Shown: positions 5,222-27,466, counted from the first letter of the stretch. The stretch: DNA of 37,090 bases from Acidiferrobacterales bacterium (GCA_022340825.1 JAJDNE010000085.1:1-37090), one strand, 5' to 3'. Notes: a model not told the origin generated them from the letters alone. Program-made: numbers and translations.

Positions 5222-5749
5222 TTGTTTTTTATTCGGGTAATAAGTCGAGCTGCCCATCTGGGCGCGCGTCTGTTCCTACCACTTCCCGGGCGCAGAGATT
5301 GCCCCCTGCGCGAAATAAAATTCGCGTTACTGGTATTCCCCGGCATCGTGCTGGCCTTGATGGCCCAGGCAGCGAGCGCGGCTAACCTGCATCTCGCCAG
5401 CGATAGCGAAATTGCGACCGCCGGTTTTTACCAGCTGTCCTGGAAAATTCCCAAGCCGCTCAAACAGGTCGAGTTGTATGAGTCCCGGGATCCGGGATTA
5501 CGCGATCATCGGGTCATTTACCGAGGGCCGGATCTGGCGCGCGCTGTCAGCGGCAAGTCTGACGGTGATTACTATTATCAAATCGTTTCAACAGACGACA
5601 ATGATCGATACGCCAGTAATATCGTCAAGGTGAACGTTGCGCACCACCCACTAAAGAATGCCTTTCTGTTTTTTGCTCTTGGGGCCACCGTTTTTATTGC
5701 CATTCTTGTTGCGATTTTTACCGGCAACCGGCGAGGTAGTGCTCAATAA
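5222..5749 (+). CDS. Exported membrane-anchored protein with Fn3-like domain
   Basis: A protein of about 175 residues. After a charged N-terminal stretch comes a signal-peptide-like segment (ALLVFPGIVLALMAQAASA, cleavage near residue 54), then a roughly 85-residue extracytoplasmic beta domain whose W..PKPLKQVELYES..., DYYYQIVSTDD and ASNIVKVNV strands resemble a fibronectin type III fold, and a C-terminal membrane helix (FLFFALGATVFIAILVAIF) with a basic end. Function unknown. The TTG at 5222, with GGAG five bases before it, is the only reasonable start I see but leaves an unusually long N-region. It is two bases upstream of the amidohydrolase, so it is probably the first gene of that operon. 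Confidence 0.65.
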   Translation: MFFIRVISRAAHLGARLFLPLPGRRDCPLREIKFALLVFPGIVLALMAQAASAANLHLASDSEIATAGFYQLSWKIPKPLKQVELYESRDPGLRDHRVIYRGPDLARAVSGKSDGDYYYQIVSTDDNDRYASNIVKVNVAHHPLKNAFLFFALGATVFIAILVAIFTGNRRGSAQ

Positions 5750-5751
5750 TC

Positions 5752-6996
5752 ATGGAAACGCTGGCGATCAACAGGGAGCGATTGCAGGCCGATATTGAGG
5801 CTCTGTCTCAAATCGGGCGCAAGGAAGACTATGGCCTCTACCGCATGGCATTTTCGGAAGGCGATCTTCAGGGGCGTGAGTGGTTTAAAAATAAAATCGC
5901 TGAAGCCGGCCTGGAGTTGTATCAGGACGGCGCCGCCAATATTCATGCCCGACTTGGATGGGATGGCAAAACCCCCTCGGTCATGATGGGTTCACACCTG
6001 GATACCGTTCCTGCCGCCGGCCACCTGGACGGAGCACTCGGCGTTCTTGTTGCGCTGGAGTGCCTACGTCGAATTAAAGAAGAGAATTTGCAGCAGGATT
6101 ACCCCCTTGAAGCAGTCGCATTCAGCGACGAAGAAGGCCGTTTTGGTGGCATGCTCGGTTCGCAGGCGCTGTCCGGTACGTTGAGTCCGGAATCTATTCT
6201 CGCCGCGGAAGATCTTAACGGTGTCAAACTGACCGATGCCATGAGCGCCGTCGGTTTGAATGCCATGGATGCGCTGCACGCTAAGCGCAGTCCTGAATCG
6301 ATTCACGCCTTTATTGAGCTGCACATCGAACAGGGGCCGATGCTCGACAATATGGGTATCAGTGTGGGCAATGTCGATGCTATTGCCGGCCTGTTCAAGT
6401 GGGACGTCAGCCTGATTGGCAAGGCCAACCATGCCGGCACAACGCCGATGGACATGCGCAACGACGCGTTTATGGGGCTGAGTGAATTCTCCAGCGAGAT
6501 CCAACGGATACTCGATGAAAACGGCAGCGCGCGCAGCGTTGCCACCATTGGCCGTGTTGAAATCAAACCCGGGGCAGCAAACGTCATCCCGGGTATCGTC
6601 AATTTTTCTCTGGAGTCGCGCGATACCGAGCAAACCGTCCTCGACGATTTGGCCAATGCATTCCGCAAAGCACTTTCTGCAGTCGCTCGTCGTCGTGGCC
6701 TGATGTTTGAATTCAAGGTGCTGAGCGAGATCGCTCCGGTGAAAAGTGATCCCGGCATTGTTAAAACCATCGAAAACGTCGCCAAGTCACTCAGTATTCC
6801 GTTTTTACAGATGGCCAGTGGCGCCGCGCATGACACCCAGTTCATGGCGCATATTACCCGTGCCGGCATGATCTTTGTGCCCAGCAAGGATGGCCGCAGT
6901 CATTCCATTGCGGAGTGGACCGATATGGATGACATTGAGAAAGGCGCAAACGTCGCACTGAATACCTTGTATCGAATTGCCGGAGGTCGGCTGTGA
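5752..6996 (+). CDS. M20-family N-carbamoyl-amino-acid hydrolase/allantoate amidohydrolase-like
   Basis: A 414-residue di-metal M20 amidohydrolase of the group that includes allantoate amidohydrolase, beta-ureidopropionase and N-carbamoyl-L-amino-acid hydrolase. All expected motifs are present: GSHLDTV (His82, Asp84), HLDGALG (Asp93), FSDEEGRFG (Glu127/128), ELHIEQGP (His191), NHAGTTPMD in the lid domain (His227) and GRSHSIAEW (His384). These enzymes remove the carbamoyl group of a ureido compound as ammonia and carbon dioxide. The exact substrate cannot be told from sequence. Its end overlaps the next start by 4 bases, implying translational coupling with the isochorismatase-fold gene. Confidence 0.9.
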   Translation: METLAINRERLQADIEALSQIGRKEDYGLYRMAFSEGDLQGREWFKNKIAEAGLELYQDGAANIHARLGWDGKTPSVMMGSHLDTVPAAGHLDGALGVLVALECLRRIKEENLQQDYPLEAVAFSDEEGRFGGMLGSQALSGTLSPESILAAEDLNGVKLTDAMSAVGLNAMDALHAKRSPESIHAFIELHIEQGPMLDNMGISVGNVDAIAGLFKWDVSLIGKANHAGTTPMDMRNDAFMGLSEFSSEIQRILDENGSARSVATIGRVEIKPGAANVIPGIVNFSLESRDTEQTVLDDLANAFRKALSAVARRRGLMFEFKVLSEIAPVKSDPGIVKTIENVAKSLSIPFLQMASGAAHDTQFMAHITRAGMIFVPSKDGRSHSIAEWTDMDDIEKGANVALNTLYRIAGGRL

Positions 6997-7736
6997 AGGA
7001 TTTCAAAAAAACGGATCTGAAAGACCTGGATGAAAAGTATTTGCACATCGACCCGCTGGAAGAAAGTTACCGTGAGTCAATCACGGAAGCACCGGAGATC
7101 ACGGAATCGGTCGAGCAGCACAAGACGGCGTTGCTGGTGATTGATCTCCAGTACCTGGATGCAGCGCCTGGCCATGGAATCTTTGCCGACGTCGCGAAAT
7201 CGGGTGTGCCGAAAGAATCGCAAGAATACTATTTCAAGCGTCTTGATCACGTGGTCCTGCCGAACGTCAGAAAGCTGCAGGACCGCTTCCGCGATGCACA
7301 CATGGAAGTCATCCATACGCGAATCATGTCGTTGACGAGGGATGGGCGTGAACGCAGTCCTGGCCACAAGCGGCTTAACCTGCATGCGGCCCCGGGCTCC
7401 AAGGAATCCGAGTTTCTTCCGGAGATCGCACCGAAGGGTGACGAGATCGTAATCAACAAAACTGCCAGCGGCGTCTTCAATTCCACGAACATCGAATTTA
7501 TTTTGCGTAACCTCGGTATCACCGGCCTGTTTATATGTGGTGTCTATACCAATGAATGCGTCTCCACCACGGTGCGCGATGCCAGTGATCGCGGTTTCTA
7601 TACCACCTTGATCAATGATGCCTGTGCCACTGTAACACCCGAACTGCACAATGCGACGATCAGTACTATCAAGGATCGTTACGCCAGGGTGCTCACGACT
7701 GAAGAGGCAGTAAAAGAAATCAAGCGGGTGATTTGA
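6993..7736 (+). CDS. Isochorismatase-fold cysteine amidohydrolase
   Basis: A 247-residue cysteine hydrolase with an intact Asp-Lys-Cys triad: LVIDLQ (Asp51), INKTASGVF (Lys156) and GVYTNECV (Cys189, with the usual cis-peptide just before). The fold family includes N-carbamoylsarcosine amidase, biuret hydrolase, ureidoacrylate amidohydrolase (RutB) and nicotinamidase, which all split amide or carbamoyl C-N bonds. It carries an N-terminal extension of about 40 charged residues. The GTG start overlaps the stop of the preceding M20 gene (GTGA). Next to a carbamoylase and a carbamoyltransferase, a ureido or amide substrate is a reasonable inference, not a demonstrated one. Confidence 0.88.
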   Translation: MKDFKKTDLKDLDEKYLHIDPLEESYRESITEAPEITESVEQHKTALLVIDLQYLDAAPGHGIFADVAKSGVPKESQEYYFKRLDHVVLPNVRKLQDRFRDAHMEVIHTRIMSLTRDGRERSPGHKRLNLHAAPGSKESEFLPEIAPKGDEIVINKTASGVFNSTNIEFILRNLGITGLFICGVYTNECVSTTVRDASDRGFYTTLINDACATVTPELHNATISTIKDRYARVLTTEEAVKEIKRVI

Positions 7737-7737
7737 G

Positions 7738-9180
7738 ATGAATAACGTAAATTCTGCGGTCCTGGACGCGAATACTGGCTGGATGATTCTGGCACTGTTC
7801 AGTGCGCTCTGGATTGCGCTTGGCTGGCTCTGGGGGCGCAAGGCCAAACAACTCGATGACTATATGTTGGCAGGGCGCAACGTTGGATTGGCGCTTGGCA
7901 CGGCGACGGCCATGGCAACCTGGGTAACCAGCAACACCACGCTGGTCGCCCCACAGTTTGCACTCCAGCTGGGGATCTGGGGCATGCTGGGCTATTCGCT
8001 TGGCTCGGTCGGCCTGCTGTTATTCGCGCCCATGGTCCGACGCATTCGCGAGCTGGTGCCCATGGGGTATACCAGCGGTGATTTTATGCGCCTGCGCTAC
8101 GGTGTATGGACCTGGCGAGTGTTTCTACTGATTTCCATGTGCTATGCCATCGGCTGGATGATCAGCCTGGGCATGGCCGGCGGTATCCTGATTCATGCGC
8201 TGACGGGTATTCAGTACGAGTACGGGATGACCGTGATACTGATGATCTGCGTCAGTTATACCCTGCTGGGCGGGTTGCGTGCGGTGATCGGTACTGACTT
8301 TATTCAAACGCTGTTGATACTCGTTGGTGTCATAATTCTGGCGGTCTTGACCATCACCGGGATTGGTTTCGACACGATGCACCAGACTGTGCTGGCGGAA
8401 AGGCCGGAACTTTTAAACCTGCTGATGCCGGCGGCAATCATGTTTCTGTTCAACAATCTGCTATTCGGCATTGGTGAGATATTTCACTCTAACGTCTGGT
8501 GGTCACGCGCCTTTGCCTTCAGGGAGAACGTCGGCTTCAAGGCTTACCTGATTGCAGGCATCGTTTGGGCACCAATTCCGATTGTCGCCGGTTTCATTGC
8601 GCTGGCGGTGCCTTCCCTGGGCCTGAACGTTCCTGCCGCTGATATGGTGGGGCCAATGGTGGCAGCAAAGTTGCTCGGGTTTACCGGCGCGGTCATCGTT
8701 TTCATTGTCGTTTTTTCCTCACTAGCTTCCAGTCTCGATTCGCTTCTGGCCGCAACCGGCGACTTGATCCTGCAAGACATCTATCGCGGCCACATCAATC
8801 CTGATGCCACTGACGAGCATCTGCGGGTTATGGCGAAGCGTATTATTTTGTTGCTGGGTGTTGTCACCTGGATCATTTGCCTGCCGCGCGTTGCAACGCT
8901 TGGCAGCCTGTTGCAGTACCTCGGCGCATTCGTCGCCAGCACTATCTGGCCGATTATCGCCGGCCTGTACTGGCAGCGGGCAAATGCCAACGGTGCGTTA
9001 TGGGCGATGCTGCTGGGAACCCTGACCGGCATCTGGGCCTACTTCGCTATCGGATTTTATGTCGCGGCACTGGTATCGGCGGCAGTCTCCATGACGATTG
9101 TCATCGTCAGTACCTGGTTGATGCCGGGCAACTTTGAATGGGCGCAGCTGGCGTATGCAGGCAGGGGGGAGCGAAAGTGA
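7738..9180 (+). CDS. Sodium:solute symporter (SSS family)
   Basis: A 480-residue membrane protein with about 13 hydrophobic segments and the SSS family pattern: a first helix leading into GRKAKQLDDYMLAGRN, then GTATAMATWVTSNT, GLRAVIGTDFIQTLLIL and the region SSLASSLDSLLAATGDLILQDIY, which in this family contains the second sodium-site serines. It would import a small organic solute with sodium. The ligand is unknown; its position between the amidase and carbamoyltransferase suggests it brings in, or takes back, the pathway's nitrogen compound. The start is one base after the preceding stop, and its stop overlaps a small membrane gene. Confidence 0.9.
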   Translation: MNNVNSAVLDANTGWMILALFSALWIALGWLWGRKAKQLDDYMLAGRNVGLALGTATAMATWVTSNTTLVAPQFALQLGIWGMLGYSLGSVGLLLFAPMVRRIRELVPMGYTSGDFMRLRYGVWTWRVFLLISMCYAIGWMISLGMAGGILIHALTGIQYEYGMTVILMICVSYTLLGGLRAVIGTDFIQTLLILVGVIILAVLTITGIGFDTMHQTVLAERPELLNLLMPAAIMFLFNNLLFGIGEIFHSNVWWSRAFAFRENVGFKAYLIAGIVWAPIPIVAGFIALAVPSLGLNVPAADMVGPMVAAKLLGFTGAVIVFIVVFSSLASSLDSLLAATGDLILQDIYRGHINPDATDEHLRVMAKRIILLLGVVTWIICLPRVATLGSLLQYLGAFVASTIWPIIAGLYWQRANANGALWAMLLGTLTGIWAYFAIGFYVAALVSAAVSMTIVIVSTWLMPGNFEWAQLAYAGRGERK

Positions 9181-9299
9181 TTATTTCAAAATTCATGTTT
9201 CAGCTAATTATCACGGTGGCGCTCATCGTCACCATAATTTCACCGATCGTACTTATTCTATTCTGGGTCAAGGACTGGAAAGACAGGAAGCTATGGTAA
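9177..9299 (+). CDS. 40-residue single-pass membrane protein, symporter-linked
   Basis: A short reading frame, GTG at 9177 to TAA at 9297-9299, starts inside the stop codon of the symporter (GTGA overlap) and ends 7 bases into the carbamoyltransferase gene. The product is one membrane helix (FQLIITVALIVTIISPIVLI) with a charged tail, WVKDWKDRK. The double overlap, the clean membrane segment and the absence of other space argue that it is real. By analogy with other two-component symporters having a tiny second subunit (for example DUF4212-type partners), it may assist the transporter; this is inference. It is not related by eye to a named family. Confidence 0.7.
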   Translation: MIISKFMFQLIITVALIVTIISPIVLILFWVKDWKDRKLW

Positions 9300-10342
9300 A
9301 GAAACTGCACCCCAAACTGACGGAACGGGTTAGCCAGGATGTCTGGGCAGAAGGCATTGAGCAGCCGGTCGCCCTGCTGGAACTGATTGAAGAACAGCCC
9401 GGTGTGATCGCCGAGCTCGCCGGGTATTCGGTTATCTCCTCCCGACAATTCTCGCGTGAGCAGATCGTGCAACTGTGCCGCCTGGCTGCCAAGTACGAGG
9501 CGCAGCAAATATTCAGTCAATTTCCACTTACTGGAAAGATATTGATCAGTGCATTTTATGAGCCAAGTACACGTACGCGCTTGTCATTCGAAAGTGTCTG
9601 GCACCGGCTGGGTGGCGACATAATCTCCATCACTGATCCATCCACGACCGGTATTGCCAAGGGCGAGTCGCTCCAGGATGTTGCCGAGATGATGAATCAC
9701 TATGGCGACGTGGTGGTGTTGCGTGACTCCAACAACGGCGCGATTTACGAAATGCTGGAAGGGCTGCGTATCCCGATCATCAATGCCGGCAACGGTACCG
9801 ATGAACATCCGACCCAGGCATTGGCTGATATTTACGCGATCCTGAAATGGCGACCGGATCTGGTGCAGGATGATTTCCCGGAAGAAAAGAAAATCACGAT
9901 AGGCATTATCGGGAATCCGGCACGAATGCGGACAGTCAGGAGTGTGTTGCTGTTTCTCGCGAAGTTCAGCGAGGGTATTCGTGAAGTGGTAATCATCACC
10001 AACTCGATTCAGCCTTTTTCAGATGATCAGCGCGAAGAACTGGAAAAGGAGGGCCTTTCGTTTCGGGTCAGCAATGATCTCGACGGCAGTCTGCCAGATA
10101 TGGATGTGGTGTATATCAATGCGATTGCCTGGGTTGGCGACAGCTACGAGGAGCACGGAATTGAATACAAGCTGTCAAAGGATTCCCCGCTCAAGAAAGA
10201 CGCCATCATCCTGCACCCGTTGGCGCGTGGAGAGGAACTGTCTACCGATCTGGATAAGACCGACCACAACTGGTATTTCGCGCAGGCACGCGGTGCGGTG
10301 TTTGTGCGCATGGCGCTGATGTCCAGCATCATGCGCTTCTAG
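9293..10342 (+). CDS. Aspartate-carbamoyltransferase-like enzyme with altered acceptor site
   Basis: A 349-residue carbamoyltransferase, closest in pattern to PyrB but with an N-terminal extension of about 40 residues. The carbamoyl-phosphate site is intact: STRTR (92-96), AKGES (Lys123), VLRD (Arg144) and HPTQ (172-175). In the amino-acid half, the Arg of the RMRTV segment (Arg213, matching E. coli Arg167) is kept, but the motif equivalent to TRVQ (Arg229 and Gln231, which hold aspartate) reads NAIA (276-279), and HPLPR has become HPLAR (308-312). I infer that aspartate is not its substrate. The ATG at 9293 lies inside the end of the preceding small gene, so translation is probably coupled. 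Confidence 0.85.
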   Translation: MVKKLHPKLTERVSQDVWAEGIEQPVALLELIEEQPGVIAELAGYSVISSRQFSREQIVQLCRLAAKYEAQQIFSQFPLTGKILISAFYEPSTRTRLSFESVWHRLGGDIISITDPSTTGIAKGESLQDVAEMMNHYGDVVVLRDSNNGAIYEMLEGLRIPIINAGNGTDEHPTQALADIYAILKWRPDLVQDDFPEEKKITIGIIGNPARMRTVRSVLLFLAKFSEGIREVVIITNSIQPFSDDQREELEKEGLSFRVSNDLDGSLPDMDVVYINAIAWVGDSYEEHGIEYKLSKDSPLKKDAIILHPLARGEELSTDLDKTDHNWYFAQARGAVFVRMALMSSIMRF

Positions 10343-10377
10343 ACTATTTATTCGCAATTAAGGATTTCTCAAGACTC

Positions 10378-12396
10378 ATGTGTGGTATCGCAGGTATTTT
10401 CAATCGTCTTCCGGAACGGCCGGTTGACCCGCAACTGCTGGTCAACATGGCCGCGATTCAGTATCACCGGGGCCCTGACGGCTTTGGTTACAAGATTCTG
10501 AAAGACAAGGGTGTTGGTTTCAGTCATGCACGACTGTCAATTATCGATCTGGACGAAAACCGGGCAAGACAACCGTTCGTCTCTGCCGACAGTCGACTGT
10601 TGCTGGCACACAACGGCGAGTTTTACGATTACAAGCGCTTGCGCGCCGAATTGACGCTGGACGGCGCACGGTTTCAGACCAAGAGTGATTCCGAGCTGGT
10701 GCTTCATCTTTATCCGCGACTGGGGCTGGAAGATGCGCTCGAGCATCTTCGCGGCGAGTTTGCGTTTGCGCTCTACGACAATAATCACGATCGGCTGATG
10801 CTGGTGCGAGACCGCTTTGGCATCAAGCCGCTTTACTGGGCAGAAACAGATAACGGAGTGGTATTCGGCTCCGAACTGAAAGTGCTGTTTGCCCATCCGG
10901 ACGTAAAGCGTGAGTTTGACGCGAAGGGCGTGTTCCACCAACTCATGCAGACGATTGTCCCCGGTACCACTGCGTTCAAGGGAATTCATCAGGTGAAGCC
11001 GGGTCATGTGCTCACTATTGAGAGACACCACGGCAAGATCCAGGTGCACGACGAAAAGTACTGGGATATGGATTTCCCACTGATGTCCGAGCGCGCAAAA
11101 CAGGATCGCGAAGACGAGCAGTATTATATAGATGGCGTCAGAAATGAGCTTCTTGAGGCATTGCAGTTACGACTGGAGGCCGATGTACCAGTTGCCTGCT
11201 ATCTGTCCGGCGGCATTGATTCCTGCTCAACGCTGGGCATGGCTGCTGCCAGTCAGCAGTCGCCGGTAAAGGCCTTCACTATCGGTTTTGACGACAAGGA
11301 CTACGACGAGACACCCATCGCCACGGAAATGGCGGAATCCGTCGGTGCCGACCAGGATGTCATGCGTCTGAATGCCAGTCATTTGTATGACAACTTTGTC
11401 GAAACCATCTGGCATACCGAGCGCACCATCTACAACACCCTTGGTGTCGCCAAGCTGTTAATGAGCCGTCACGTCAACAAGGCCGGCTACAAGGTGGTGG
11501 TAACCGGAGAAGGGTCGGATGAACTGTTTGGCGGTTATCCCGCTTTCCGTCGTGACATGTTTCTTCATGGCATGGATACCCTGTCCGAGGCAGAACGTGC
11601 CGAATGGGAAAGCCTGTTGGCCGAGGGCAACAAGATATTCAAAGGCGCGATGCTGGCAGAAAAAGAAGTCAACGATCCGGCATTGAACGAGTTGGTCGGG
11701 TTTACTCCCTCGTGTCTGCAGCCCTGGCTGGCTTCGGCAGAACACGTGGAAGGGCTGATGAGCAAGGCAATGCAGAAAGAAGTGGCAGGCTATCAGCCAG
11801 GTGCGGCGATCGCCGACGCACTGGACGCAGACATGCTGGCGGGCCGTCACCCGCTCGACAAGGCGCAATATGTCTGGATCAAGACCATGCTAGAGGGCCA
11901 GATCCTGACCTGGGGTGGTGATCGGGTAGACATGGCCAATTCCATGGAAGCACGTCCGCCGTTCCTGGACCATCACCTGGCGGAATTCGCAGCACAACTA
12001 CCACCGACCATGCGCATAAAGGGACGAACTGAAAAATATGTCTTGCGTGAAGCGATGAAGGGCGTGTTGCCGAAAGTACTTTATGAGCGGGAAAAGTTTG
12101 CCTTTATGGCACCACCTGCCCATACCGATGAAGACAAATGGAAGGCGATGAAGGCGTTGGCTGAAGAGTATTTATCAGACGAAGCCATTGATGCTGCCGG
12201 TCTGCTGGATAAGGAGGGGGTGAAGGCTTTGTTTACACTACACGAAGACGAGGACACCAGTGCATCGACCCAGGTACAGCTGGACGCAGTGATCAACCAC
12301 ATGATCGGCGTGCAAATATTGCATCACCACTTCGTCGCAACTGACGTTCCAGAGCATGCCAGGCAGAAAGCCGATCAGCTGGGTTGGCGCCCCTAG
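10378..12396 (+). CDS. Asparagine synthase (glutamine-hydrolysing)-type amidotransferase
   Basis: A 672-residue two-domain enzyme. The N-terminal class II glutamine amidotransferase domain (about 1-210) starts with the catalytic Cys2 (MCGIAGIF) and contains RGPDG, HNGEFYD and RDRFGIKPLYW. The synthetase domain has the ATP pyrophosphatase loop LSGGIDS (276-282) and GEGSDELFGGY (377-387). It is about 100 residues longer than E. coli AsnB and closer to larger AsnB relatives. AsnB makes asparagine, but relatives amidate other carboxylates. Placed 35 bases after the odd carbamoyltransferase, it may amidate the pathway compound rather than provide housekeeping asparagine; either remains possible. 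Confidence 0.85.
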   Translation: MCGIAGIFNRLPERPVDPQLLVNMAAIQYHRGPDGFGYKILKDKGVGFSHARLSIIDLDENRARQPFVSADSRLLLAHNGEFYDYKRLRAELTLDGARFQTKSDSELVLHLYPRLGLEDALEHLRGEFAFALYDNNHDRLMLVRDRFGIKPLYWAETDNGVVFGSELKVLFAHPDVKREFDAKGVFHQLMQTIVPGTTAFKGIHQVKPGHVLTIERHHGKIQVHDEKYWDMDFPLMSERAKQDREDEQYYIDGVRNELLEALQLRLEADVPVACYLSGGIDSCSTLGMAAASQQSPVKAFTIGFDDKDYDETPIATEMAESVGADQDVMRLNASHLYDNFVETIWHTERTIYNTLGVAKLLMSRHVNKAGYKVVVTGEGSDELFGGYPAFRRDMFLHGMDTLSEAERAEWESLLAEGNKIFKGAMLAEKEVNDPALNELVGFTPSCLQPWLASAEHVEGLMSKAMQKEVAGYQPGAAIADALDADMLAGRHPLDKAQYVWIKTMLEGQILTWGGDRVDMANSMEARPPFLDHHLAEFAAQLPPTMRIKGRTEKYVLREAMKGVLPKVLYEREKFAFMAPPAHTDEDKWKAMKALAEEYLSDEAIDAAGLLDKEGVKALFTLHEDEDTSASTQVQLDAVINHMIGVQILHHHFVATDVPEHARQKADQLGWRP

Positions 12397-20299: not shown

Positions 20300-20974
20300 C
20301 TAGAAGCTGATCGTGTCAAAACTGCTAAATTGCGGGTGGTCTGCTTCCGGATCCGGTGCCTGTTCGCGAACCAGCCAGCAGGTCTGCATGCCAGCCGCCC
20401 TGGCAGCGTCGAGTTCTTGCCTGATGTCAGAAAGAAACAGGATCTCTTCGGACGGCAGGTCCAGCTCGCGGGCAATCTCCTGATAACTTTCCGGCTCCTG
20501 CTTGTGACCGATGTGGGTGTCGAAGTAACCGCTAAACAGTGGTGTGAGGTCGCCGTAGTCGGTATGGGCAAATAGCAGTTTCTGGGCATAGATGGATCCG
20601 GAGGAGTAGACGTAGAGCCTGATACCCAGTTCGTGCCACTGGCGGAGTTTGTTTACTGCATCCGCATAAATATGGCCGGTGTAATCGCCATTGCGATAAC
20701 CTTGCTCCCAGATAAGGCCTTGCAGGGATTTAAGCGGTGTAACTTTCCGATCTTCATCAATCCATCGGATCAGCTGATCCAGCACTTTGTCATCATCGAG
20801 GCCGCCACCCGCCTCGACATTGGCCTGATCCAGTAATTCGCGGACTGAGGCATCATCCTTGTGTTGATGAACGAAATCGGCCAGGTGTTCCCTGGCATAG
20901 GGAAACAGCACATCTTTGACAAATGAAAGCGAAGAAGTGGTTCCCTCGATATCAGTAACGATTGCTTTGATCAT
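20300..20974 (-). CDS. mtnC: Enolase-phosphatase E1 (methionine salvage)
   Basis: A 224-residue HAD-superfamily enzyme starting with DIEGTTSS, where the first Asp is the nucleophile, followed by VYSSGS (motif II) and LFLSDIRQELDAARAAGM (motif III/IV). MtnC enolises 2,3-diketo-5-methylthiopentyl-1-phosphate and removes its phosphate, giving acireductone. Its start overlaps the stop of mtnD by 4 bases, so it is the last gene of the mtnB-mtnD-mtnC run. mtnA and mtnK, for the earlier steps, are not in the window. Confidence 0.96.
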   Translation of the reverse strand: MIKAIVTDIEGTTSSLSFVKDVLFPYAREHLADFVHQHKDDASVRELLDQANVEAGGGLDDDKVLDQLIRWIDEDRKVTPLKSLQGLIWEQGYRNGDYTGHIYADAVNKLRQWHELGIRLYVYSSGSIYAQKLLFAHTDYGDLTPLFSGYFDTHIGHKQEPESYQEIARELDLPSEEILFLSDIRQELDAARAAGMQTCWLVREQAPDPEADHPQFSSFDTISF

Positions 20975-21528
20975 GCATGGCCTGTCAGCTGATCAAACGT
21001 TGGGAATTGCCCGGCAATCTTGCTACCAGTGAAGTTGCCGACCCAGCCCTCGGGCGTGGTGAAAAATCGTATGCACTTGAATTCGGGTTGTTCACCCATG
21101 TCAAACCAGTGCGTGGTATTGGCCGGTACCGAGATCAGGTCGCCCTTTTCGCACAGCACGGCATAGACATGATCATTCTTGTGAATATAGAAAATACCGC
21201 TGCCATCGACGAAGAAGCGAATCTCGAAGTCGTCATGCGTATGTTCATCCAGAAACTTTGCGCGCATCTCTGCTTTCTGCGGATGATCCGGGCCGAGTGC
21301 GACCACGTCGACGGTGGTGAAGCCGTGGGCGTTATTCAGGCGCTCAATGTCTTCCTTGTAGGCATCCAGGATTGCCAGCTGGTCGGCATTGGCGGAAAGC
21401 GGTTGATCCGCCTGCCACTGCTCGAATTGCACGCCGATAGCAGAAAGGCGATCGGTAATCTCCTGGTACTCGGTAAAGTCTTCATGGCTGTTTGGATTGG
21501 TATCCTGAAAAATGGTCAAGCGGCTCAT
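20971..21528 (-). CDS. mtnD: Acireductone dioxygenase
   Basis: A 185-residue cupin enzyme whose metal ligands are visible: HTHDDFEIRFF (H-x-H-x4-E) and the His of NTTHWFDMG. With iron it forms the keto acid precursor of methionine plus formate; with nickel a dead-end product. The length is normal. It overlaps mtnC by 4 bases and mtnB by 4 bases, so the three are translationally coupled. Confidence 0.96.
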   Translation of the reverse strand: MSRLTIFQDTNPNSHEDFTEYQEITDRLSAIGVQFEQWQADQPLSANADQLAILDAYKEDIERLNNAHGFTTVDVVALGPDHPQKAEMRAKFLDEHTHDDFEIRFFVDGSGIFYIHKNDHVYAVLCEKGDLISVPANTTHWFDMGEQPEFKCIRFFTTPEGWVGNFTGSKIAGQFPTFDQLTGHA

Positions 21529-22136
21529 GGTTTTTCTACCTCGCGTAGTTTCAGTTCACAGGCAAACAGGAATTCAAATGCTTCCAGGTGACGCATGGTT
21601 TCCTTGATATCGTGGCCCCATGTGTAAAGACCATGACCGGCAATGAGATAGCCGTGTATCGGCGGGTGATTATCCATATATTCATCAACGAGCTTTGCCA
21701 GTCGGGGAATGTCCTGGTCGTTGGGGAAAACCGGCACGGTGATTGACGATTCGTGCGAATCAATCCCCCGAAATGCCTTCAGCAATTCGTAGTCCTGAAG
21801 TTTCACCTCACCCGGATACAGGCGTGAAATCAAAGTCGCGTTCATTGAGTGTGTATGCAAGATTGCACCGACGTCGGGGAATCTGCGATACAGCTGGCAA
21901 TGGAGAATGGTTTCTGCAGATGGTTTCTTGCCACTCTCGAGAGGTTGCCCGTCCAGGTCGGCACGCAGGATGCCGTCGCGGGTCAATTCACCCTTGTGCC
22001 AGCCGGAAGCCGTTATCGCCATCTCATCGTCGCCAAGGCGCGTGGAAAAATTGCCGCTGGTCGCGGGCACCCAACCCTTGTCATGGAGAATGCGGCCCGC
22101 CTCAATCAGGGCGTCGGCGCTGTCAGCTAAACTCAT
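21525..22136 (-). CDS. mtnB: Methylthioribulose-1-phosphate dehydratase
   Basis: A 203-residue class II aldolase-fold enzyme. The zinc ligands are seen as HTHS and the later His of AGHGLYTWG; TSGNFSTRL is the phosphate-binding turn. It dehydrates 5-methylthioribulose-1-phosphate. The chosen ATG at 22136 starts MSLADSADALIEAGR, which fits the family; the open frame continues upstream to 22244 with no family similarity. It is the first gene of the coupled mtnBDC group. Confidence 0.94.
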   Translation of the reverse strand: MSLADSADALIEAGRILHDKGWVPATSGNFSTRLGDDEMAITASGWHKGELTRDGILRADLDGQPLESGKKPSAETILHCQLYRRFPDVGAILHTHSMNATLISRLYPGEVKLQDYELLKAFRGIDSHESSITVPVFPNDQDIPRLAKLVDEYMDNHPPIHGYLIAGHGLYTWGHDIKETMRHLEAFEFLFACELKLREVEKP

Positions 22137-22226
22137 ATTGTATCCGTGTGTGCAATAGAGAACGAATGCTAGCACACACCTGATCGACCGACAGTCCCCG
22201 GCAAACAGCGAGTTGCTGTTCCAGAT

Positions 22227-22255
22227 AAAAAAAGGGGCAGCCATCTGGCTGCCCC
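22227..22255 (-). terminator. Rho-independent terminator of the PhoX-like gene
   Basis: A 9 bp stem (22234-22242 with 22247-22255, loop ATCT) preceded by seven A, which read leftward is a seven-U tail. It lies downstream of the leftward PhoX-like gene and just upstream of mtnB, insulating the two. Confidence 0.92.
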
Positions 22256-24627: not shown

Positions 24628-25905
24628 TCAGAACAACAGGCTGACCAGATAAAGACTGAACCACGGAACATAGGTAATGATGATTAGTGCAAATATCAGC
24701 ACGAACATCCAGGGCAGTGCCGCCTTGGTGACCTGGCCAAGGCTCATGCCAGTGAGCCCCGCGGCGACGTAGAGATTCAAGCCGACAGGTGGCGTAATCA
24801 TGCCGACTTCCATGTTGGTCGTCATAATAATGCCAAGGTGAATCGGATCGATGCCAAGGTTCACAGCAATGGGATGGAATAGCGGCGCAAGTATTAGAAG
24901 TATTGACGACGGCTCCATAAAGTCGCCGGCAAACCACAGGATGACGTTCACCAGTAGCAGGAAGCTCCATGGGCTCAGGTTGTGCTCGATTACCTTGCGT
25001 GACAGATCTTGTGGTACTTGCTGTTCGGTCAGCACGTGGGCAAAGATCATGGCGCAGGCAATGATAAACATGATCACTGCCGTCATTTTTGCCGAATCCA
25101 GCATGACCTTGGGGATATCGGAAAAATCCATGTCTTTGTGAACAAACAGTGCGACAAACGCGGAATAAACCGCGGCTACCGCTGCTGCTTCCGTCGGCGT
25201 AAACACTCCACCGTAGATTCCGCCGACCACAATCACAATTAGAAGTAGTCCGGAAAAGGCACGGCCTAGCGCCTTGCCAAGATGCGCAAAACCTTGCCAT
25301 TCCTCGCGCGGCATCTTCATACGTTTGGCAGTGATCCAGGTCGCCGTCAACAGCAGGAAGGCCATTAACAGTCCGGGAAGGATGCCAGCGATAAACATCT
25401 TTCCGACGGATTCCTCGACCGCATCGGCGTAAACAATCATCGGGATCGATGGCGGGATCAGTATCCCCATGCTGCCAGCGGTCGCGATGACACCCACGGC
25501 ATAGCGGGGGTCATAACCGGCCTTGATCATTCCTGGAATCATGATCGATCCGATAGCGACCACGGTTGCCGGAGAAGAGCCGGAGATCGCCGCGAACAGC
25601 ATGCATGCCACCACACCGGCCATGGCGAGACCGCCATGCATCCAGCCGACGGTAGCCTTGGCCAGATCGATCAGACGAAGTGATACGCCGCCAGTCGTCA
25701 GGAAGTGGGAGGACAGAATAAAAAACGGGATCGCCAGGAGCGTGGTGTGCTCCATGGTGTCGAAAAGCTTCTGCGCAATAATTACCGGAGAGTCTTCAGT
25801 GGCAAGCATCACGTAGGCAAGACTGCTTGAACCCAGGCTGATCGCAATCGGTACACCGATCAACAACAGGATCAACAGTCCGACAAAGAGGAGCGCGACG
25901 CTCAT
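24628..25905 (-). CDS. dctM: TRAP transporter large permease subunit (DctM)
   Basis: A 425-residue membrane protein with about 12 helices and DctM family features: SSHFLTTGG, MFAAISGSSPATVVAIGSIM, GSMGILIPPSIPMIVYA and EVGMITPPVGLNLYV. It forms the sodium-driven channel of a tripartite TRAP transporter. The correct start is the ATG at 25905, whose ATGA overlaps the end of dctQ; the open frame reaching 26082 carries unrelated residues from the overlapping dctQ gene. It is the last gene of dctP-dctQ-dctM. Confidence 0.95.
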   Translation of the reverse strand: MSVALLFVGLLILLLIGVPIAISLGSSSLAYVMLATEDSPVIIAQKLFDTMEHTTLLAIPFFILSSHFLTTGGVSLRLIDLAKATVGWMHGGLAMAGVVACMLFAAISGSSPATVVAIGSIMIPGMIKAGYDPRYAVGVIATAGSMGILIPPSIPMIVYADAVEESVGKMFIAGILPGLLMAFLLLTATWITAKRMKMPREEWQGFAHLGKALGRAFSGLLLIVIVVGGIYGGVFTPTEAAAVAAVYSAFVALFVHKDMDFSDIPKVMLDSAKMTAVIMFIIACAMIFAHVLTEQQVPQDLSRKVIEHNLSPWSFLLLVNVILWFAGDFMEPSSILLILAPLFHPIAVNLGIDPIHLGIIMTTNMEVGMITPPVGLNLYVAAGLTGMSLGQVTKAALPWMFVLIFALIIITYVPWFSLYLVSLLF

Positions 25906-26423
25906 TTCTCCAGCTCTTCGAGGGCGTGGGCTTGTTCCCTGAGGTGAATACTGTCGCGCCTGTTTAACGCAATCTCCCAGCCCACCACCAGGAAGTGATA
26001 CAGCATCAGGCTCATGCCCACCGGTATGGCGAGATAGGGTATCCACTGCGGGATTCGCAGGTCTTCCGTGAGGTCGCCCCACTGGTAAATGCGGACGATG
26101 TACCAGAAAGATTCATAGTCGACGATGGCGACAAAAATAATGCAGCAACTGATCGCGGTAATTAGTGCAGCGCGGTGCATTTTCGGTGACAACTTTTCAA
26201 GCAGGATATCGATACCCAGATGGATGCCTACCTTCACGCCATGTGCCGCGCCGATCAGCACCACCCAGGCAAACAGATACTGGACAAATTCAAGCGCCCA
26301 GATCAACCCGGTGTCGAATACATACCGAAGCACCACGTTGGTGAATAACACCAACGTGGCGACGGCAAAGCCAACAGTAATTGTGTATTTCTCGAAAAGA
26401 TCGATGTATCGGTTAAAACGCAT
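25902..26423 (-). CDS. dctQ: TRAP transporter small permease subunit (DctQ)
   Basis: A 173-residue four-helix membrane protein of the DctQ family (YTITVGFAVATLVLFTNVVLRYV near the start; ALEFVQYLFAWVVLIGAAHGVK with the typical aromatic/Gly pattern). It links DctM to the substrate-binding protein. ATG at 26423 is preferred over the GTG just before it. It overlaps dctM by 4 bases and begins 35 bases after dctP. Confidence 0.93.
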   Translation of the reverse strand: MRFNRYIDLFEKYTITVGFAVATLVLFTNVVLRYVFDTGLIWALEFVQYLFAWVVLIGAAHGVKVGIHLGIDILLEKLSPKMHRAALITAISCCIIFVAIVDYESFWYIVRIYQWGDLTEDLRIPQWIPYLAIPVGMSLMLYHFLVVGWEIALNRRDSIHLREQAHALEELEK

Positions 26424-26458
26424 CACATCTTTTTTAAGTTGTTAAACGGTTGTTATGC

Positions 26459-27466
26459 CTAGCGTCCCAACAACTTGCTGATATCGTCGATCAGGTCACC
26501 ACCAATCTTGTCGCGGAATTCCTTCCACACCGGTGCCGTCGCCTTGCGCCATGCGCCGCGTTCCGCCGCAGACATCTCTACAACCTTGGCATAGCCAGCC
26601 TTTTCGATCTTCTTGCGATCGGCGGTGTCGGCCTCGGCCGCAAAGCGGCGATTGGCCGCGGTGGCTTCCTTCAATGCCTCGGTAACCTGTGCACGCACGT
26701 CCTCGGGCAGACCGCTCCAGAAATCACGGCTAACGACCACCAGGTAACCGAGATAGGAGTGATTTGAAACCGATATGTAATCCTGTACCTCGAAAAACTT
26801 CTTGGAGTATATATTCGACCAGGCATTTTCCTGACCATCTACCACACCCTGTGCCAGCGCGGTGTACACTTCCTTGAATGGCAGTTTCTGTGGTGTGCCG
26901 CCCAGGTGGGTGATCATGGAACTGGCGACATCCGATGACTGGATTCGGAATTTCTTGCCAGTGAAGTCGTCCGGTGATTTCTTCAATGGCTTGTCGCCCT
27001 TGATCGAGAACACCTTCATGCCGTTGTCCCACACTGTGAGTGCACGCAAGCCTTTGCTACCCAGGCCATCGGTCATACGATCCATGATTGGCGAGTCCAC
27101 CAGCTTGTGGACATCTTTGACGTCATCAAACAGGTAAGGCAAATCGAATGCCTGCAGTGTGTTTGAGAATTTCACGAATTTCGACAGACTTGGCGCGGCC
27201 ATGATTCCCGTGGTTTTGCTCTTACTCAGGCGCATGGCTTCCAGCACCTTGTTGTCGTTATATAGCTGGGAGTTGGGAAACACCTCGATCTTCACACGGC
27301 CGTTTGTCTTTTTGTGCACCAACTCGGCAAATAAGTCAGCCGCTCGCCCCTTCGGGGTATTCTGTGCAACAACGTGGGAGAATTTGATGACGTACTCTTC
27401 AGCGAATGCCTGAACACTGCCTACTACCAGGAACGCTGCGACCAATACTTGCGAAAGCATTTTCAT
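26459..27466 (-). CDS. dctP: TRAP transporter substrate-binding protein (DctP type)
   Basis: A 335-residue periplasmic solute receptor with a signal peptide (LSQVLVAAFLVVGSVQAFA). Conserved DctP features include the HVVAQNTPKGRAADLFAELV start, LPYLFDDVKDVHKL, GKKFRIQSSDV, where the Arg normally clamps the substrate carboxylate, and QGVVDGQENAWSNIYSKKF. The pattern is closest to C4-dicarboxylate receptors, so a dicarboxylate or similar acid is the likely ligand. It is first in the dctPQM operon. Confidence 0.93.
   Translation of the reverse strand: MKMLSQVLVAAFLVVGSVQAFAEEYVIKFSHVVAQNTPKGRAADLFAELVHKKTNGRVKIEVFPNSQLYNDNKVLEAMRLSKSKTTGIMAAPSLSKFVKFSNTLQAFDLPYLFDDVKDVHKLVDSPIMDRMTDGLGSKGLRALTVWDNGMKVFSIKGDKPLKKSPDDFTGKKFRIQSSDVASSMITHLGGTPQKLPFKEVYTALAQGVVDGQENAWSNIYSKKFFEVQDYISVSNHSYLGYLVVVSRDFWSGLPEDVRAQVTEALKEATAANRRFAAEADTADRKKIEKAGYAKVVEMSAAERGAWRKATAPVWKEFRDKIGGDLIDDISKLLGR

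Follow-up and report, generated by a model that had tools for sequence, protein, structure and literature searches.

What does a compact set of genes for two hydrolases, a symporter, a carbamoyltransferase paralogue and an amidotransferase accomplish for the cell that carries it? We examined this question for an operon at 5222-12396 of a 37,090-nucleotide stretch of DNA from an Acidiferrobacterales bacterium (GCA_022340825.1, JAJDNE010000085.1:1-37090), the whole of which is termed the window. The operon consists of seven open reading frames (ORFs) on one strand separated by gaps of +2, -4, +1, -4, -7 and +35 bases (Table 1). A first-pass annotation made from the sequence alone had given the same coordinates, rightward strand and gaps, and its family assignments for the four enzymes and the symporter also held (PF01546, PF00857, PF00474, PF02729/PF00185 and PF13537/PF00733). 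It had proposed a self-contained uptake plus breakdown or rebuilding route for a carbamoylated nitrogen compound, which our analysis bore out, and had named no product. We can now add that the product is probably an osmolyte: gene content and conserved residues point to a fairly probable role of the operon in making, importing and recycling N-carbamoyl-glutamine amide.

We found that the four enzymes are inherited together. In a class sample of 369 genomes, including the window genome, the operon was present in 23 and absent from 346. The transferase paralogue occurred in 22 other genomes of this sample (61-75% identity) and was missing from the 56 further genomes sampled within the window's order. 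Transferase and amidase marked an identical set of 23/369 genomes, and the amidotransferase was found in 20/369, all inside that set; contig ends fit its absence from two of the remaining three (G089, G390) and a broken reading frame the third (G295). Owing to linkage and shared ancestry, no formal probability is to be read from these co-occurrence counts. In the broken copy (G295:C104, 6357-7363 and 888-2877) the M20 and amidotransferase genes both appear damaged, with a missing stretch and a frame change, which may reflect sequencing error or decay. The order M20, amidase, (symporter, small protein), transferase, amidotransferase was kept in 20 neighbourhoods fetched from other genomes, with one exception, a copy whose contig stops inside the transferase gene. 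We also scanned named genomes, where at least 575 stretches held a relative of the transferase query, the weak end of which may include ordinary aspartate carbamoyltransferases (ATCases). The best 80 of these (58-78% identity), hereafter the 80 named loci, kept the enzyme set in most cases. Carriers among them were Ectothiorhodospira (E. mobilis DSM 4180 and DSM 237, E. marina, E. haloalkaliphila, E. shaposhnikovii and E. magna), Thiorhodospira, many Thioalkalivibrio, Thiohalophilus, Thiohalobacter, Kangiella, Idiomarina, Aliidiomarina, lucinid symbionts and uncultured lineages. The genera named here live in marine, saline or haloalkaline habitats. The first-pass annotation had named scattered homologues as the finding that would speak against a shared pathway; the search across genomes gave near-perfect co-occurrence instead. 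Collectively, these data indicated that the four enzymes are a tight evolutionary unit and that the seven-gene operon is no chance grouping.

The carbamoyltransferase paralogue retained the domain pair of aspartate carbamoyltransferase (PyrB), with both OTCace domains present (PF02729, OTCace_N, 128 bits; PF00185, OTCace, 58 bits), as well as its carbamoyl-phosphate site. Among 81 aligned sequences, the equivalents of S52, T53, R54, T55, K84, R105, H134 and the alpha-carboxylate residue R167 were kept in all, and the carbamoyl-phosphate motifs were present, STRT in 81/81 and HPTQ with its histidine in 81/81 and its glutamine (Q137) in 80/81. The paralogue differed from PyrB in an N-terminal extension of about 40 residues, in scores below the ATCase equivalog cut-offs (TIGR00670, 193 of 237 bits; NF002032, 192 of 263) and in its second-substrate residues. 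The RxQxER motif of the 240s loop, which occurs in all known ATCases (PMC4581275), was absent, R229 being replaced by A, S, T or K and Q231 by A, V, L or S in 81/81, and the HxLP position (HPLP in PyrB) read HPLA, its last residue alanine in 81/81. In ATCase, R229 and Q231 hold the beta-carboxyl of aspartate while R167 and K84 help to position the alpha-carboxyl (PMC4581275). Retention of R167 with loss of R229 and Q231 would suit a substrate whose alpha-carboxylate is free and whose side chain is neutral, such as glutamine. We assigned these active-site residues by sequence alignment because the AlphaFold model of the transferase was only moderate (pLDDT 71.7). The features of ornithine carbamoyltransferase (OTCase) were missing, with the loop NAIAWVGDS in place of DxxxSMG and an equivalog score of 99 of 281 bits. 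Ureidoglycine transcarbamylase (UGTCase) is likewise a non-aspartate member of the ATC branch (PMC4581275), whereas the paralogue lacked its H(T/S)LP signature and no purine-degradation context was seen near the operon. Motifs thus ruled out a true ATCase, OTCase or UGTCase.

The amidotransferase contains GATase and Asn_synthase domains (PF13537/PF00733; TIGR01536, 430 bits over a cut-off of 267), and both of its active sites are intact, with the glutaminase residues and the SGGIDS loop kept. It scored under the equivalog cut-offs of AsnO, XrtA and AsnB (AsnO TIGR03104, 305 of 570 bits), and formed a clade of its own on a long branch with support of 0.76 in a small tree. The M20 enzyme (PF01546) was assigned to the hydantoinase/carbamoylase family (TIGR01879, 379 bits over a cut-off of 204), and its nearest solved relative was the N-carbamoyl-L-amino acid hydrolase 3n5f (E 5.5e-77). 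H82, D93, E128, H191, H384, N277 and R290 were invariant in 20 sequences, and we take these to be the residues that bind the metal and, as an Asn/Arg pair, a free carboxylate. The invariance of this carboxylate-binding pair implies that in breakdown the amide is removed first. In the amidase, D51, K156 and C189 were invariant in 21 sequences. Allantoate degradation, the Rut pathway and reductive pyrimidine degradation also use M20 and isochorismatase-fold hydrolases on ureido compounds; in contrast to those pathways, the M20 enzyme here fell under the cut-off of allantoate deiminase AllC (TIGR03176, 270 of 598 bits), the amidase fell far under those of RutB (61 of 378) and biuret hydrolase (84 of 370), and an amidotransferase and a transferase have no place in them. 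Purine or pyrimidine degradation was ruled out by these family scores and the gene content, in agreement with the first-pass annotation, which had set the locus apart from all three pathways.

We then considered which compound such enzymes could make. N-carbamoyl-glutamine amide was described in 1991 as a salt-protecting solute of a purple bacterium, Ectothiorhodospira marismortui, also known as E. mobilis, and a 2013 review gave it for one organism only (PMC1224877, PMC3857566). The two names are treated in taxonomy as one species, and E. marismortui is listed as DSM 4180T (PMC7824335). We found a four-gene form of the operon in E. mobilis DSM 4180 (L065/L144), that is, in the known producer species. 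The 1991 work is said to have used strain DSM 4180 itself. Only three carbamoyltransferases of the ATC/OTC type were present in this genome, namely PyrB and ArgF, identified from their pyrR/pyrC-like and argD-like neighbours respectively, and the operon paralogue; the first two were left out of the residue analysis above. N-carbamoyl-glutamine amide needs one N-carbamoylation and one amidation, which match the two synthetic chemistries of the operon, and hydrolases of the two types present would undo both. A gene assignment for the solute was not found in the open-access literature, subscription papers being outside the search.

On this basis, the transferase would move the carbamoyl group from carbamoyl phosphate onto the alpha-amino group of glutamine, and the AsnB-type enzyme would amidate the alpha-carboxylate with ATP and a second glutamine. 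Since the substrate of the transferase is predicted to carry a free alpha-carboxylate, carbamoylation would precede amidation. In breakdown, the amidase would take off the C1 amide and the M20 enzyme then the carbamoyl group, while the symporter, together with the 40-residue protein and the exported Fn3 protein, would take the solute up. The E. mobilis coincidence and the altered active site support this exact product and do not prove it. Were the osmolyte a different carbamoylated amide, such as N-carbamoyl-asparagine amide or N-carbamoyl-glutamate diamide, mechanism and role would be unchanged and the same co-occurrence and neighbourhood evidence would apply; glutamine as substrate depends on the E. 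mobilis link and on the lost carboxylate-binding residues, and the latter also fit asparagine. We regard this alternative as unlikely, in that only the glutamine compound, of all carbamoylated amide osmolytes, has been reported from a carrier species, and the E. mobilis genome offers no further candidate transferase of the superfamily beside the paralogue.

Comparison of partial gene sets across lineages separated two pairs, one for synthesis and one for breakdown, from an uptake module. Ectothiorhodospira and a few others lacked all three of the Fn3, symporter and small-protein genes and had only the four enzymes; the symporter gene was co-absent with the other two in E. mobilis and elsewhere, and the Fn3 gene was absent wherever the symporter gene was, so that the three constitute a separate, dispensable uptake module. 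No Pfam family matched the Fn3 protein above threshold. The AlphaFold model of this protein (mean pLDDT 85.7) matched fibronectin type III domains (best E 5.7e-5), with a single helix after them at the C-terminus, in agreement with the Fn3-like exported membrane protein that had been predicted. The 40-residue membrane protein, also predicted, proved real, with the same length in 16/16 aligned copies and the consensus end LxxLWIxDWKxGxLW; it matched no library family, known symporter-accessory families included. As a fixed-length protein that accompanies the symporter, it is a candidate for a new subunit of that transporter. Those genomes of Idiomarina, Aliidiomarina and Kangiella that were checked had the Fn3-symporter-transferase-amidotransferase block and no amidase at any site, and their sole M20 enzyme was a 46-48% relative. 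In four Kangiella loci (L115, L120, L121 and L123) the synthesis block has a divergent M20 gene beside it on the opposite strand, and the genome checked contained no amidase; Kangiella may rely on another amidase for breakdown. In metagenome-assembled genomes of Leptospiraceae and Spirochaetaceae, the M20-amidase pair sits between transferase and amidotransferase. All four core enzymes were present at four unlinked places in Thiorhodospira sibirica (L085, G423), a case of function kept without linkage.

These distributions bear on the direction of the pathway. The first-pass annotation had offered two models, one biosynthetic, with carbamoylation followed by amidation, and one catabolic, with the transferase working toward carbamoyl phosphate. 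A catabolic operon of this kind would import a ureido compound and degrade it as a source of nitrogen and energy. The two hydrolases, the symporter and the closeness of the M20 enzyme to carbamoylases would suit the catabolic model. However, an ATP-consuming amidotransferase is part of the unit throughout, Idiomarina, Aliidiomarina and Kangiella retain transferase and amidotransferase in the absence of the amidase, Ectothiorhodospira lacks the uptake module, the operon's neighbours are osmolyte genes, and the recurrent neighbours examined included no recognisable carbamate-kinase-like gene. Hence we favour the biosynthetic model; the amidase-less lineages and the osmolyte-synthesis neighbours make its catabolic counterpart improbable.

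The neighbourhood was informative about physiology. In five of the 80 named loci, a gene for the glycine/sarcosine methyltransferase (GSMT) of betaine synthesis (NF051855, 495 bits over a cut-off of 350) starts 46-54 bp past the amidotransferase gene, and in a sixth 478 bp past it; a sarcosine/dimethylglycine methyltransferase-like gene follows, and in two loci then a BCCT transporter gene. BCCT transporters flank the operon at other loci. In seven Ectothiorhodospira loci a divergent sucrose synthase gene (TIGR02470) lies about 0.65-0.75 kb upstream with a MarR gene in between. Across the class sample, GSMT was found in 11/23 operon genomes and 13/346 others (Fisher p 6e-9), and ectoine synthase was not associated with the operon (2/23 versus 48/346). 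Thiorhodospira sibirica, which has all four core enzymes, is said to have no annotated osmotic stress genes (PMC7824335). Taken together, an osmolyte role of the operon is well supported. At 3 M Na+, Thioalkalivibrio versutus D301 increases glnA and nitrogen assimilation (PMC9062515), an indirect observation that is consistent with the proposed pathway.

A known system resembles the proposed one. In the N-acetylglutaminylglutamine amide (NAGGN) operon asnO-ngg-peptidase of Pseudomonas aeruginosa (PA3459-PA3461), the amino end of glutamine is likewise blocked and the carboxyl end amidated by an AsnB-type enzyme; a hydrolase in the operon and osmoprotection are further likenesses (PMC8070244). 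The adjacent MarR repressor PA3458 controls the NAGGN operon (PMC8070244). NAGGN is an N-acetyl dipeptide made via Ngg, whereas we propose a single carbamoylated residue made via a transcarbamylase. The operon amidotransferase did not reach the AsnO score, which ruled out membership of the NAGGN system, and E. mobilis carries a true AsnO and an XrtA amidotransferase separately. An adjacent MarR regulator is a possible further likeness, not a defining enzyme of NAGGN synthesis: a MarR-like gene lay near the operon in 31-33/80 loci, and none was seen adjoining it in the window. A proposed match between the operon MarR and a MarR beside E. mobilis asnO was dropped, no MarR being apparent in the ORF list around that gene.

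The same neighbourhoods were considered for a specialised metabolite, such as an antibiotic, siderophore or signal with a carbamoylated amino acid at its core. Enzymes of the AsnB type are at work in natural-product clusters, and transcarbamylases are known from the zwittermicin, viomycin and padanamide clusters (PMC4581275). Nevertheless, the recurrent neighbours examined included no recognisable peptide synthetase, ligase or tailoring gene, and a hydrolase pair that cancels both synthetic steps, together with an import symporter, fits a stored and recycled metabolite. We consider this explanation highly improbable, the least probable of the three alternatives.

Several points weigh against N-carbamoyl-glutamine amide as an osmolyte made by this operon. 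The chemistry is predicted from the genes in every copy, and HPLA in place of HxLP makes the second-substrate geometry of the transferase uncertain. E. marismortui is the only known source of the compound, Raman measurements failed to detect it there as a minor solute, and no record was found of other carriers making it. Related species share ancestry, hence the association tests are not independent. Finally, the window genome (G000, 86% complete) had no GSMT or EctC match and its osmolyte context is unproven; because of these missing matches, the operon may be its main osmolyte route.

If N-carbamoyl-glutamine amide is indeed the product, a metabolite orphaned since 1991 would gain a pathway, the transcarbamylase superfamily would gain a new substrate, and a large set of genes otherwise taken for aspartate carbamoyltransferase or asparagine synthase would be re-assigned. 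A solute reported from one organism would become a widespread osmoprotectant of marine and haloalkaline bacteria, and osmoadaptation would be directly testable in Thioalkalivibrio, Ectothiorhodospira, Kangiella, Idiomarina, uncultured marine lineages and Thiorhodospira sibirica.

Table 1. Genes of the operon, with positions in the window and proposed roles.
Product	Position	Strand	Evidence and proposed role
Exported Fn3-domain protein, one C-terminal transmembrane helix	5222..5749	+	ORF, fold match; optional uptake module
M20 N-carbamoyl-amino-acid hydrolase	5752..6996	+	TIGR01879, 379 bits; proposed carbamoyl removal once the amide is gone
Isochorismatase-fold amidase	6993..7736	+	PF00857, 129 bits; proposed C1-amide hydrolysis
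SSS-family sodium/solute symporter	7738..9180	+	PF00474; proposed solute uptake
40-residue single-pass membrane protein	9177..9299	+	GTG start overlaps symporter stop; presumed symporter partner
ATC-branch carbamoyltransferase paralogue	9293..10342	+	PF02729/PF00185; proposed glutamine N-carbamoyltransferase
AsnB-type glutamine-dependent amidotransferase	10378..12396	+	TIGR01536, 430 bits; proposed C1-carboxylate amidation of N-carbamoylglutamine

Promoter and terminator scans gave nothing beyond chance. Elsewhere in the window, inspection by eye revealed three leftward ORFs at 20300-22244 that resemble a methionine-salvage trio (enolase-phosphatase, dioxygenase and dehydratase), and leftward genes at 24628-27466 that resemble a TRAP transporter with large and small membrane subunits and a binding protein.

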